A stretch of DNA of 41,655 nucleotides from positions 1-41,655 of the forward strand of contig CASEAJ010000089.1 of NCBI GenBank assembly GCA_949285425.1, read 5' to 3'. Below the pieces are notes generated by a model. The model worked only from the letters and a program-made list of their open reading frames with translations, was not told the origin of the DNA and ran no database searches. The translations under genes were made by a program, and so were the position numbers. Each line of letters begins with the position of its first letter. Position 1 is the first letter of the stretch. This DNA comes from an uncultured Porphyromonadaceae bacterium. GTDB lineage: Bacteria; Bacteroidota; Bacteroidia; Bacteroidales; Paludibacteraceae. Positions 14,044 through 35,807 of the stretch are shown here, piece after piece.

Positions 14044-14116
14044 TATGACCGCTTCACAAGTCTTTTCGAATGTCATTCCCTTGCTTTTTCCCCTGTTTCC
14101 TGCAAGCAGAATGCAA

Positions 14117-14306
14117 CACTTCCTATAGTTTCTCGTCCAACTTCCTATAGTACGTTTTTTAACAGTCATGCTTTTGCCATCGTTGTGTCTTGTGGTTCAA
14201 TCGGTTGTCGCCCTATAAAGCCATAAAACAAACTATAGGAAGTCTGGCAACCAACTATAGGTAGTTGAACGACTAACTATAGGTAGTTATGCAACTTCCT
14301 ATAGGT
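14117..14306. repeat. 22-bp-period palindromic array B
   Basis: CTATAG occurs at 14123, 14145, 14233, 14255, 14277 and 14299 (first bases). Steps are 22, 88 (4 x 22), 22, 22 and 22 bp, so the phase holds across the gap. Copies sit in AACTATAGGTAGTT or its variant AACTTCCTATAGTT, that is arms AACTW and WAGTT around a 4-bp centre (TAGG or CCTA). Neighbouring copies face each other as imperfect dyads; for 14277-14304, 11 of 14 positions pair. Unlike arrays A and C it has no perfect terminal inverted repeat and is longer, with a degenerate middle (14151-14230). It lies between topA and the polysaccharide operon. Confidence 0.8.
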
Positions 14307-14508
14307 GGATTTCGTTCCGCCTCGGCGAACTTTGGACAATCAACATGTAGCACACGGATGGGGAACTTGCCGTTTTTCAAAAAAAACATCCTGCCCGTGC
14401 ATCGTTTTCCATGCTGTTTGCATCTACCTTTACAACACAAGAGTGCTAAAAAGACGATGCAAGAATCCGGCAAACACACTTGTTAACTTTTTATTAATTA
14501 TTTTTTAT

Positions 14509-32581: not shown

Positions 32582-33829
32582 CTAACGGGGTTCCTTGACG
32601 ATGACCGGTTTCCCTGTCACCAGCAGTTTGGCCTGGGCACTGTAGTTCAGCTGACGGTCCTTGCGGTCGGCAACACGGGTCTTCATATCAAGATTCTTCT
32701 CCTTTACCACCCGGTTGCCATCCACCTCACGGAAAAACACATTCCTCTTCACATCAAGATAGGCATGGCGCACACGATATTTTTCCAACGTGTCAGTCTG
32801 CATTTGGATGATGTTGACCAATTCCAGTTCCTCGTCACTCAGTTTGTAGCCAAACGGTATATGCAGTTCGGCTTCGAGGCTTTGGGCTATTTTCCCGATA
32901 CTCAACGTGGCCGGATCGACATAGAAAAACATCTGTAGCTTCATCTTTGCAATACCTATAAAATTCCGTTTGTCGGTATAAGTAAGAATATTCTGGTCGC
33001 CCACGGTCGTATAGTCCCACATGGAAAGTTTGTTCACATTCAGCAATCCGACGATAGAGCCGGTATAACCGCCCCACAAGTAACGGTGCATTTTCAGCAT
33101 CTGCTCATCCAGTTCACGCTTTTCAAACAGCGTGGCCGGCACGTTGCCTTTCTTGCGCCGGTTCTTCTTTGCGTTTTTTTCAAACTGCTCGGCTGCCAGT
33201 TCGTTCAGTTTTTCATAACCGGCTTCCACCTCTTGGGTGGTAAATTCCTTTACACTCTCCGAAAACACCACGATGGAGTCGCTTTTACGCCGTTCCGACT
33301 GAGGATATTCCTCCAACGTCCCTATCATTTCATGCCTCAACAGCTGACGGTCATCCTGCGCTCCCTGATAGGTCGACACCACCCGGTATTCGCTCATACG
33401 ATTCGGAAAGTCCTGCTTCAGACGTTCCACAAAACGGGCCAGCACCGCTTTCTTTATTTTACGGCTTTCCTTTTTCGATATTTTGGCCGACACCTCCGCA
33501 CCGTCGAGCAAGACCGGCTGCTCTACCAACGTCACCTCCACAGGCGTTTCTTCGGTCAAAGTGCTCACCGGCAACTCCACCGTACGGAAACCGATGAAGG
33601 AAAACACCAGATTGTCGGCACGGTCGGCCGGCGGTATGTCCAACGCAAATTCGCCTCCGTTTCCCGTCACGGTGCCCACATACGGGTTGTCTTTCACATA
33701 TACCGACACATACGGCAAGGGATTTCCCTGTTCATCCGACACCCGCCCCACATAGCGTCCGGCAGCAAACGAAGCGACGCTCCACGACAAAACAAAAACA
33801 AAACAAGCCAAACTCAACCACTTTTTCAT
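32582..33829 (-). CDS. Exported CarboxypepD_reg-like domain protein
   Basis: 415 residues. Signal peptide MKKWLSLACFVFVLSWSVASFA. Residues 24-110 form a CarboxypepD_reg-like beta-sandwich (YVGRVSDEQGNPLPYVSVYV, FSFIGFRTVELPV), as seen at the N terminus of SusC-type receptors. The remaining 300 residues carry a charged helical segment (KKESRKIKKAVLARFVERLK; KNAKKNRRKKGNVP) and a beta-rich C-terminal part. There is no TonB plug or barrel, so it is not a receptor. Similar stand-alone proteins are common in Bacteroidota and have no known function. No -7 box was seen upstream. Confidence 0.75.
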   Translation of the reverse strand: MKKWLSLACFVFVLSWSVASFAAGRYVGRVSDEQGNPLPYVSVYVKDNPYVGTVTGNGGEFALDIPPADRADNLVFSFIGFRTVELPVSTLTEETPVEVTLVEQPVLLDGAEVSAKISKKESRKIKKAVLARFVERLKQDFPNRMSEYRVVSTYQGAQDDRQLLRHEMIGTLEEYPQSERRKSDSIVVFSESVKEFTTQEVEAGYEKLNELAAEQFEKNAKKNRRKKGNVPATLFEKRELDEQMLKMHRYLWGGYTGSIVGLLNVNKLSMWDYTTVGDQNILTYTDKRNFIGIAKMKLQMFFYVDPATLSIGKIAQSLEAELHIPFGYKLSDEELELVNIIQMQTDTLEKYRVRHAYLDVKRNVFFREVDGNRVVKEKNLDMKTRVADRKDRQLNYSAQAKLLVTGKPVIVKEPR

Positions 33830-33968: not shown

Positions 33969-34026
33969 CCGGCAAAAACAAGCCCCCATTCGTTCGCACA
34001 AACAGAGTGTTTTTCCATTTTGCCGG
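33969..34026. other. 9-bp inverted repeat in noncoding region
   Basis: CCGGCAAAA (33969-33977) and TTTTGCCGG (34018-34026) are exact inverted copies 40 bp apart. They lie upstream of the minus-strand gene at 33829 and just before array C. The function is unknown; 33830-33968 shows nothing else. Confidence 0.4.
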
Positions 34027-34053
34027 CTTGTGTTTCGCTTCCCGACGGCACAA

Positions 34054-34151
34054 ATTCTACGACCCACTATTGTGGGTTATATAACTCACTACTATGGGTT
34101 ATACAACCCACTATTATGGGTTGTACAACTCACTATTATGGGTCGTAGAAT
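34054..34151. repeat. 22-bp-period palindromic array C
   Basis: ATTCTACGACCCA (34054-34066) is the exact reverse complement of 34139-34151. Inside, TGGGTT starts at 34073, 34095 and 34117, and TGGGTC at 34139, each 22 bp apart. The three inner units are 16-bp palindromes, perfect in the middle one (TGGGTTATACAACCCA, with one A-C pair at its centre), separated by CTATTG, CTACTA, CTATTA and CTATTA. The element is symmetric about 34102.5, the centre of the middle palindrome. This is the same plan as array A (1-100), two half-sites plus three palindromes, with entirely different bases. Confidence 0.9.
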
Positions 34152-34177
34152 ATTGGCCGATGAAACGGAAAACCAGT

Positions 34178-34561
34178 ACGGTCAAAACAGGGAAAACGCA
34201 TTATAAAACGTATCTTTTGACGAATAAGGCAGACTGCAAAGGGGCTGTCCGCCCCTGCGACCCCGACTTCATTTCTTTCTTCAGCGAAAGAAACGAAGCA
34301 AAGAACGCCGCCGCTGTGCCCGCTTCGCACGGAAAAACACGGCCTTGCGAAGCCTGAATGCCTGAACTCGCTTCGCTCAGACAACAGGCCTTCGGGCGGC
34401 TTCTACAGGCCGATTTTCCGGCTCACCGGACAAGGCGGGGAAAAATGTACCGTATATTGAGCCACTTAGCCTAACAATCCAGTTGAGAAACTGGAGTTAT
34501 CGTTTGTTCTTTTGAGCGTTCATTGCCACATGTTATAATGCGTTTTCCCCGACGGTCAAAA
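34178..34561. mobile_element. MITE-like element with 19-bp TIRs and 10-bp target duplication
   Basis: The 19 bases from 34188 (CAGGGAAAACGCATTATAA) match the reverse complement of 34533-34551 at 18 of 19 positions. Directly outside both ends is the same 10-mer ACGGTCAAAA (34178-34187 and 34552-34561), as a target-site duplication would leave. The 364-bp body has no convincing gene. It is filled with short GC-rich hairpins: AGGGGC/GCCCCT at 34238-34255, TCTTTC/GAAAGA near 34272-34292, CCAGTT/AACTGG at 34479-34494. A partner transposase is not in the window. The 10-bp duplication is of the size left by some IS4-type elements, but the family is unknown. Confidence 0.7.
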
Positions 34562-34673: not shown

Positions 34674-34752
34674 TTTTTTGTCCGGATTGTTTTTCTCATC
34701 GGTCATTTACCACCGGCAAACTTCCTCTTCAAAAAACAATCCGGACAAAAAA
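34674..34752. repeat. 21-bp perfect inverted repeat upstream of the ABC operon
   Basis: TTTTTTGTCCGGATTGTTTTT (34674-34694, 21 bp, of which the key part is TTGTCCGGATTG) is exactly inverted at 34732-34752, with 37 bp between. Flanking bases on both sides are partly similar as well. Each arm holds the small palindrome TCCGGA. It lies about 90 bp upstream of the -7 box for the ABC transporter and could be a pair of operators, a cruciform, or a MITE remnant. Confidence 0.65.
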
Positions 34753-34907: not shown

Positions 34908-35807
34908 ATGTTACTGGAAGTAGAAAACGTCGTCAAACAATACTCAGGCCACCGGGCACTCGACGGGGTAAGCCTCTCCGTTCCGCGCGGCACGGTCTAC
35001 GGGCTGCTGGGGCCCAACGGAGCCGGCAAAACCACCCTCATCCGCATCATCAACTGCATCACCGCCCCCGACAGCGGCGAAGTGCGGCTCAACGGCAAGG
35101 TCATCCGTCCGGAAGACGTGCGCCACATAGGCTACCTGCCCGAAGAACGGGGACTGTACAAGAAAATGAAAGTGGGCGAACAGGCCCTCTACCTGGCACA
35201 GCTGCGGGGCATGAGCAAGCACGACGCACTGAAAGCCCTGAAACACTGGTTCGAGAAATTCGGCATCGAAGCCTGGTGGAACAAGAAGGTGGAAGAACTG
35301 TCCAAAGGCATGGCGCAGAAAGTGCAGTTCATCACCACCATTCTGCACGAGCCCGAACTGCTCATCTTCGACGAACCGTTCAGCGGCTTCGACCCGGTCA
35401 ACGCCGACCTGCTGAAACGCGAAATACTCGAACTGCGCGACCGGGGAGCCACCATCATTTTTTCCACACACAACATGTCGTCGGTCGAAGAACTGTGCGA
35501 AAACATATCGCTGGTAAACCGTTCGAAAATCATGTTGCAGGGCAACGTGGCCGAAATACGGGCGGCACACACGCATCACACGTTCAAAGTCCGCACCTCT
35601 TCGCCGCTGACCGCCGACAGCTGTTTCGAAGTGCAGGAACAGACCGACGGCCCGGCCGGACGCTTTGAAACCGTCATACGCAAATCAGACCCGCAGACAT
35701 CAAACAACACGCTGCTTGCCGCCCTCATGGCGCAGACCGACGTGCTGGCGTTCGAAGAAATGCTGCCAAGCATGAACGACATATTCATAGAAACCGTAAA
35801 CCGCTGA
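34908..35807 (+). CDS. ABC transporter ATP-binding protein (NatA-like)
   Basis: 299 residues. Walker A GPNGAGKT at 35-42, signature LSKGM at 131-135, Walker B LLIFDEP at 151-157, and the switch His in IIFSTHNMSS. After the ATPase core comes a C-terminal extension (about 215-299) ending ALMAQTDVLAFEEMLPSMND, usual for NatA-type exporters. It drives the permease encoded 36 nt downstream. The substrate may be Na+ or a small toxic molecule, by analogy only. Confidence 0.92.
   Translation: MLLEVENVVKQYSGHRALDGVSLSVPRGTVYGLLGPNGAGKTTLIRIINCITAPDSGEVRLNGKVIRPEDVRHIGYLPEERGLYKKMKVGEQALYLAQLRGMSKHDALKALKHWFEKFGIEAWWNKKVEELSKGMAQKVQFITTILHEPELLIFDEPFSGFDPVNADLLKREILELRDRGATIIFSTHNMSSVEELCENISLVNRSKIMLQGNVAEIRAAHTHHTFKVRTSSPLTADSCFEVQEQTDGPAGRFETVIRKSDPQTSNNTLLAALMAQTDVLAFEEMLPSMNDIFIETVNR

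Follow-up and report, generated by a model that had tools for sequence, protein, structure and literature searches.

A dispersed intergenic element with four dyads on a 22-bp lattice in an uncultured Porphyromonadaceae bacterium

Array C, at positions 34054 to 34151 of the window (the whole stretch of 41,655 nucleotides analysed here), follows a plan of four dyads on a 22-bp lattice that recurs, with a nearly fixed dyad number, in intergenic DNA of three species. We give about even weight to the reading that array C is the core of a dispersed non-coding element that serves as a docking frame, wrapped by a predicted dimeric DNA-binding protein. That one architecture stays fixed while the sequences differ points to a single machine that measures DNA in helical turns. 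The original prediction had suggested an undescribed class of element, and we found no description of this 22-bp four-dyad plan in the open-licence PMC literature.

Array C is 98 bp long and carries the predicted perfect 13-bp terminal inverted repeat, ATTCTACGACCCA at 34054 to 34066 and TGGGTCGTAGAAT at 34139 to 34151 (both on the forward strand). The three inner palindromes placed by the original prediction at 34080.5, 34102.5 and 34124.5 are present, and further dyads are centred at 34069.5 and 34113.5. A fuller parse gives a 96-bp core (34055 to 34150) consisting of an 8-bp end, four 14-bp dyads separated by three 8-bp linkers, and a second 8-bp end, with no strand assigned to these parts. 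The dyads are CCCACTATTGTGGG (34063 to 34076), CTCACTACTATGGG (34085 to 34098), CCCACTATTATGGG (34107 to 34120) and CTCACTATTATGGG (34129 to 34142), and the linkers occupy 34077 to 34084 (TTATATAA, itself a dyad), 34099 to 34106 and 34121 to 34128. By family profile, the core is flanked on each side by an outer lattice of three 22-bp unit places (33989 to 34054 and 34151 to 34216, strandless), which are weak and degenerate in the window's own copy. The array lies between a reverse-strand gene with a carboxypeptidase-regulatory-like domain (32582 to 33829) and a forward-strand ABC-transporter ATPase gene (34908 to 35807). A GC-rich interspersed repeat (TTTGACGAATAAGGC ... GGGGCTGTCCGCCCC ...) follows at 34209 to 34470, where its start overlaps the outer end of the right outer lattice; this repeat also adjoins A, B and C arrays at L014, L017, L028, L032 and L103. 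Upstream of the ABC-transporter gene there is also a perfect 21-bp inverted repeat, TTTTTTGTCCGGATTGTTTTT, whose arms enclose a loop of 37 nt (34674 to 34752).

Two other arrays in the window, A and B, have the same 22-bp period as C. Array A (1 to 100) stands at the very start of the contig and contains a 96-bp core on the same plan as C (3 to 98; GTTATCGT ... ACGATAAC), followed by a right outer lattice defined by family profile (99 to 164), both strandless. In this assembly many contigs break off near arrays that border on one repeat end, so assembly seems to be difficult there. Array B (14118 to 14312) belongs to element B (14079 to 14320, strandless), in which CTATAG sits on a 22-bp lattice in a layout different from that of A and C; in the window copy CTATAG occurs at 14123, 14145, 14233, 14255, 14277 and 14299. 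This layout is itself fixed, as the first six sites fall at 0, 22, 111, 133, 155 and 177 in 10 of 12 copies, two of which extend by one or two further units. The window copy, one base shorter in the middle, is one of the remaining two, and the other lacks the last site.

The window's own genome (G000; 3.04 Mb in 128 contigs, 89% complete) holds array C in 24 good and three weak places (judged by eye from 49 matches), array A in ~40 places (from 82 matches) and array B in 15 places, the window being included in each count. A structure-based, sequence-blind scan over periods of 12 to 60, with a criterion of 31 matching bases out of 44 at a given offset, detected 57 period-22 arrays across 841,334 bases of the G000 sequence, mostly long contigs, many of them already matched by array A or C. 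Period 22 alone was enriched, with 0 to 4 arrays at every other period except the harmonic 44 (46 arrays). No period-22 array arose in 4,206,670 bases of a first-order Markov control, and the 57 are therefore not due to chance. The same scan identified one array in 360 kb of G004 (another genus) and none in 97 kb of G003 (same genus); in G001 and G002 array densities are meaningless because the stretches were chosen for holding arrays. In a larger sample of G000 (1,224,978 bases), regular-expression classes divided 82 period-22 hits into families A (21), C (14), D (12), B (12), M (5), G (4), J (3), P (3) and others (8). The 22-bp consensus was dyad-symmetric at P<0.01 in only 22 of the 57 arrays (35 at P<0.05), and some families, G, J, F and I among them, may therefore be of a different nature.

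Patterns for A and C match G000, G001 and G002, representing three species, and 58 further genomes, among them G003 from the same genus, gave no match. The arrays of the window thus have further copies; had they been the sole ones, this would have spoken against a general class of element. The family-C pattern was also found in 63 stretches of named collections, in the metagenome-assembled genomes CASFUX01 and CALUML01 of uncultured Bacteroidales; the named collections with these matches may leave out the window's own genome. For element B, a search of 299 further genomes of the family, with scoring limited to two candidates in each, returned no match. A viral source for the arrays was set aside on the basis of zero matches among viral contigs to one A pattern and one C pattern. 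Outside the genus there is at least one 22-bp array, after masked N runs and one 7-bp microsatellite were set aside: L305:7202-7328, in a genome of another genus (G021), has CGTATATACC cores and a sequence unlike A, B and C. In G003, the gap at 2439 to 3111 of L183 contains an inverted repeat of its own (GCGTGCCATAGGTACGCTAC ... GTAGCGTACCTACGGCACGC) where G000 carries an A array.

Arrays A and C had been predicted to share one architecture, and both do parse to a 96-bp four-dyad core. The accompanying claim that their bases differ holds for the ends and for the 8-bp linkers (ACACGTGT in A, TYRTAYRA in C) but not for the 14-bp dyad CYCAYNNNNRTGRG, which is the family C dyad and is common to both; the family A dyad is (C/A/T)(C/T)CAY NNNN RTG(G/A)(G/T/A). 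Family M combines CCTCC-type dyads with C-like linkers and ends, and family P combines A-like dyads with the linker ACTAATGT. Cores of A, C and M measure 8+14+8+14+8+14+8+14+8 = 96 bp and those of D 94 bp. Four dyads were present in 105 of 114 A/P and C cores from G000, G001 and G002. Family C cores had 96 bp in 20/21 (G000), 31/35 (G001) and 24/25 (G002) cases, and A/P cores in 23/26 (G000) and 7/7 (G001 and G002 together), mosaics with a D unit being left out of both the total and the A/P counts; all six M cores had 96 bp and all eight D cores 94 bp. Since the patterns used demand whole units, these counts show unit number rather than quantised length, and they drop arrays that have a broken dyad pattern or hold a D unit. 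Ten A loci were seen in G001 and G002, all of 96 bp and two of them one array, and seven distinct cores were kept in the count. A search allowing any length returned, for A, 96 bp (24 times), 118 bp (three), 74 bp (three), 140 bp and 122 bp, where the 118, 140 and 122 and one of the 74 reach into neighbouring end-motif copies; for C, 96 bp (18) and 118 bp (one); and for D, 94 bp (seven) plus five others, at least two of which are chance pairs.

The original prediction also stated that the plan is conserved without sequence. This stands to the extent that the very unlike families A/P, C, D and M have a nearly fixed dyad number, but A, C, P and M share modules and common descent explains part of the likeness. 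Mosaic arrays at L108:4509, L115:9843, L123:2915 and L161:16002 consist of A-type units plus one D-type unit, with A-type ends. The mosaics and the common modules show that the families are related, that modules pass between them and that part of the plan was inherited. Even so, the number of dyads remains at four. The 22-bp register is also kept where the sequence is not, which fits contacts on one helix face.

Similarity among copies extends beyond the core. Information in outer units 1 to 4 was 1.14, 1.02, 0.65 and 0.12 bits per base for C in G001 and G002 (114 flanks), 0.82, 0.35, 0.21 and 0.03 for C in G000 (42 flanks), 0.74, 0.41, 0.35 and 0.08 for A in G001 and G002 (15 flanks), and 0.80, 0.58, 0.36 and 0.07 for M (12 flanks). 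In C, in M and in the A arrays of G001 and G002, each side of the core therefore carries three outer 22-bp units, beyond which similarity falls to near nothing. The outer lattice is shorter in A of G000 (0.75, 0.33 and 0.07 bits, the third unit being weak) and in D (0.79, 0.25 and 0.06 bits, with one or two units seen). By family profile, the full element measures 66+96+66 = about 228 bp and comprises ten 22-bp units: three outer units, the four central dyads and three outer units.

A process that builds such arrays from single units had been proposed. In family A, dyads compared between arrays at matching ordinal positions differ at 2.9 of 14 bases and those compared within one array at 4.5, which indicates that whole A arrays were copied and speaks against that process for this family. 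Two A copies, one of them at a contig end, agree at 99% of positions over 98 bp. The ordinal signal is unclear for C in G000 (2.75 differences within arrays, 2.91 at the same ordinal, 3.21 at others), and the comparison gave no clear signal either way for D and M in that genome. The polarity ><<< was found in 21 of 24 C arrays in G002 and 15 of 31 in G001, and no polarity dominates in G000. The A arrays of G001 and G002 have kept their ends and length, but ACACCTGT or ACAGGTGT has replaced ACACGTGT in 16 of 21 linkers, which is a concerted change.

G001 and G002 still share orthologous arrays, among them a pair (L216 and L212) that differs by exactly one 22-bp unit. Core identity in five orthologous pairs was 1.00, 0.98, 0.96, 0.78 and 0.88, and was usually, though not always, higher than that of the outer intergenic sequence of the same pairs (0.37 to 0.98). 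At the locus corresponding to that of array C in the window, the same ATPase gene is likewise preceded by a C array in G001, where the neighbours farther upstream are different; no C array was seen in the 1.5 kb upstream of this gene in G002 and G003. One orthologous gap holds an interrupted C array in G001 and an A array in G002. Neither a target-site duplication nor a clean empty site was present in the few syntenic gaps read, and the evidence for mobility is therefore indirect.

Mobile DNA sits on the lattice. The 139-nt end of a presumed insertion sequence matched 23 places, 22 of them with the exact end. All exact copies but one (L058, which has no array) abut A, P or mosaic arrays, and 20 of these 21 lie at lattice positions as judged by eye, 10 of them 3-4 bp and nine 25-28 bp beyond the core and one (L061) within a dyad, offset by 2 bp from the dyad centre. 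The remaining copy, L062, is off the lattice. A C array at L175 (G002) is interrupted by an IS110-family transposase gene (Pfam DEDD_Tnp_IS110 and Transposase_20), and a C array at L169 (G001) holds a frame with the same start. One junction falls at an identical point of the terminal dyad in the two arrays. On the other side, one and a half dyads are kept in L169, and no second junction was found at L175 within the 2.6 kb read.

The positions of the arrays relative to genes were tabulated using a hexamer model made for this analysis, which misses some genes and so makes the gene-context counts approximate. None of the 82 hits in the larger G000 sample has its midpoint in a called gene. Of 213 gaps measuring at least 250 bp, 71 contain an array. 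Hits flanked by a gene on either side number 73, of which 35 fall in divergent, 32 in tandem and six in convergent gaps, and the 213 background gaps are 67 divergent, 122 tandem and 24 convergent. Distances between neighbouring arrays of any family on 14 contigs had a coefficient of variation (CV) of 0.45 over 44 distances, where random gaps gave 0.73. A replicate on ten new contig parts gave 0.61 against 0.66 (13 distances, P=0.34), and the pooled 57 distances 0.50 against 0.72 (P=0.0005). Neighbours closer than 4 kb made up 5%, compared with 19% expected by chance (pooled P=0.0025; replicate alone P=0.23). A spacing of ~13 kb looks regular, a suggestive result that rests on the first 44 intervals, as the small replicate is not significant by itself.

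Four dyads at intervals of two helical turns would suit a four-dimer oligomer bound to a single face of the DNA. In the docking-frame reading, a dimeric protein would read the dyads, four dimers would line up along one helix face with the DNA wrapped around them, and the protein oligomer would fix both the number four and the two-turn step of 22 bp. Copies would spread as whole non-autonomous elements moved by a separate enzyme, and the ~13-kb spacing could come from a chromosome-organising role or from mutual exclusion of insertions. If a protein does wrap the elements, they may be addressable, regularly placed anchors of the nucleoid, and their parallel families would let changes in protein-DNA specificity be followed within one genome. 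A stronger version, which we consider unlikely although worth stating, is a chromosome-organising element with ten protein sites on the 22-bp lattice, the central four under one wrapping oligomer, recurring every ~13 kb, in which the parallel families would stem from diversifying protein specificity while the architecture stayed fixed.

The main rival is a selfish family resembling miniature inverted-repeat transposable elements (MITEs), in which the arrays would be ends-only derivatives of a transposon with transposase sites spaced 22 bp apart, of no use to the cell and surviving only between genes. The terminal inverted repeats, the lack of called genes inside the arrays and of midpoints inside called genes, the copying of whole A arrays, the near-identical A pair and the genus-restricted high copy number are all consistent with this. 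It accounts less well for one dyad number common to four families, for the persistence of orthologous copies between G001 and G002 and for the deficit of neighbours under 4 kb; in addition, no autonomous partner was identified in an unsystematic search and the loci read have neither target-site duplications nor empty sites. We regard this explanation as a credible minority view. It is compatible with a docking frame, and both can be true. Ordinary operators, with one regulon of a transcription factor per array family, would explain why arrays lean to divergent gene pairs and why 14-bp dyads resemble dimer sites. Against this, dozens of four-dyad sites exist per family, the families are interspersed along the chromosome, and array C stands 757 bp upstream of one flanking gene start and 225 bp from the other. 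Neither regulator family examined is expanded: G000, G001, G002 and G003 contain 2, 2, 1 and 2 Lrp/AsnC domains and 4, 2, 3 and 3 LytTR domains, respectively. This argues against one Lrp/AsnC paralog per array family and against LytTR regulators at direct-repeat sites, and we consider operators of this kind improbable. RAYT (PF01797) was also set aside as a cognate enzyme, as its counts (1, 0, 0 and 5; G001 and G002 being 87-89% complete) do not follow the arrays and are highest in G003, which is without A and C. A protein family co-occurring with the arrays, as originally proposed, was thus not found among RAYT, Lrp/AsnC and LytTR in these four genomes.

The dyads could instead act as hairpins in a transcribed structured RNA, a terminator or a cruciform, given that many units are near-palindromic (35 of 57 arrays, as above) and that array C, taken over its full length, forms an imperfect palindrome with 73% complementarity. 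Linker positions 3/6 also lean weakly towards pairing, without significance (P 0.08 to 1). However, double changes that restore a pair are not significantly in excess in any pairing table and are avoided in several, which makes a hairpin unlikely. At positions 5/10 of the family C dyads, the pair-restoring T-A occurs in 0/138 dyads of G001 and 2/99 of G002, where C-A and T-G are common; C of G000 shows no avoidance there (4/82, P=0.4). At positions 2/13, avoidance of T-A is clear only in C of G000 (2/85) and in pure A (1/76), and is missing from the wider A/P set (12/100, P=1). Although uneven, the tables taken together indicate that pairing is not kept by selection, so that it is probably the double-stranded form that is read, and hairpin RNA or cruciforms were set aside on this basis. 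Convergent gaps are not enriched (6/73 arrays, 24/213 gaps of 250 bp or more), and the window has no match to a known structured RNA in Rfam at the gathering threshold. We judge the hairpin explanation very improbable.

Several known repeats resemble the arrays in part. BOX elements of pneumococcus are small modular interspersed repeats, as the arrays are, but differ in having dissimilar modules, the middle one in variable number. REP sequences favour the 3' ends of genes, whereas the arrays lean to divergent gaps. According to published excerpts, REP and BIME elements of enterobacteria and pseudomonads are extragenic, palindromic and of high copy number, with composites of regular spacing, and are targets of insertion sequences (PMC2817692, PMC1525189), including known IS elements that target REP sequences (PMC1525189). 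The arrays share extragenic placement, high copy number, palindromic units and hits by insertion sequences with the REP and BIME elements so described, but differ from them in their 22-bp lattice with four core dyads and in that no RAYT domain was found in two of the three array-bearing genomes. MITE-like traits are also present, in that the arrays have terminal inverted repeats, are dispersed and lack coding capacity by our own gene calls. The BrickBuilt MITE of Porphyromonas gingivalis is described, in the sections available, as intergenic, with spacer-less tandem 23-nt units in variable number, inverted-repeat ends, a separate leader and tail, and an element length of 84 to 991 nt (PMC4596501). 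It resembles the arrays as an intergenic Bacteroidales element with short units and inverted-repeat ends. On that partial description, the arrays do not belong to BrickBuilt, since they have 22-bp dyad units in nearly fixed number and several families on one plan.

The closest precedent for the spacing comes from proteins. Operators of Lrp/AsnC octamers such as FL11, Ss-LrpB and BarR have (semi)palindromic 13-15-bp sites at two- or three-turn spacing (PMC2995911, PMC10201364), and Lrp-family complexes offer a precedent for two-turn spacing with about 100 bp wrapped on protein (PMC2995911). The arrays likewise have dyads of this size at two-turn spacing, and by analogy with the parts of these reports consulted, Lrp-family complexes are the nearest known geometry. 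The operators described there control single genes, whereas the arrays are dispersed genome-wide and Lrp/AsnC domains are not expanded. Even if the arrays were only mobile DNA, they would form an unusual class, with a copy plan stricter than that of REP, BIME and MITE elements as far as the published descriptions compared here extend.
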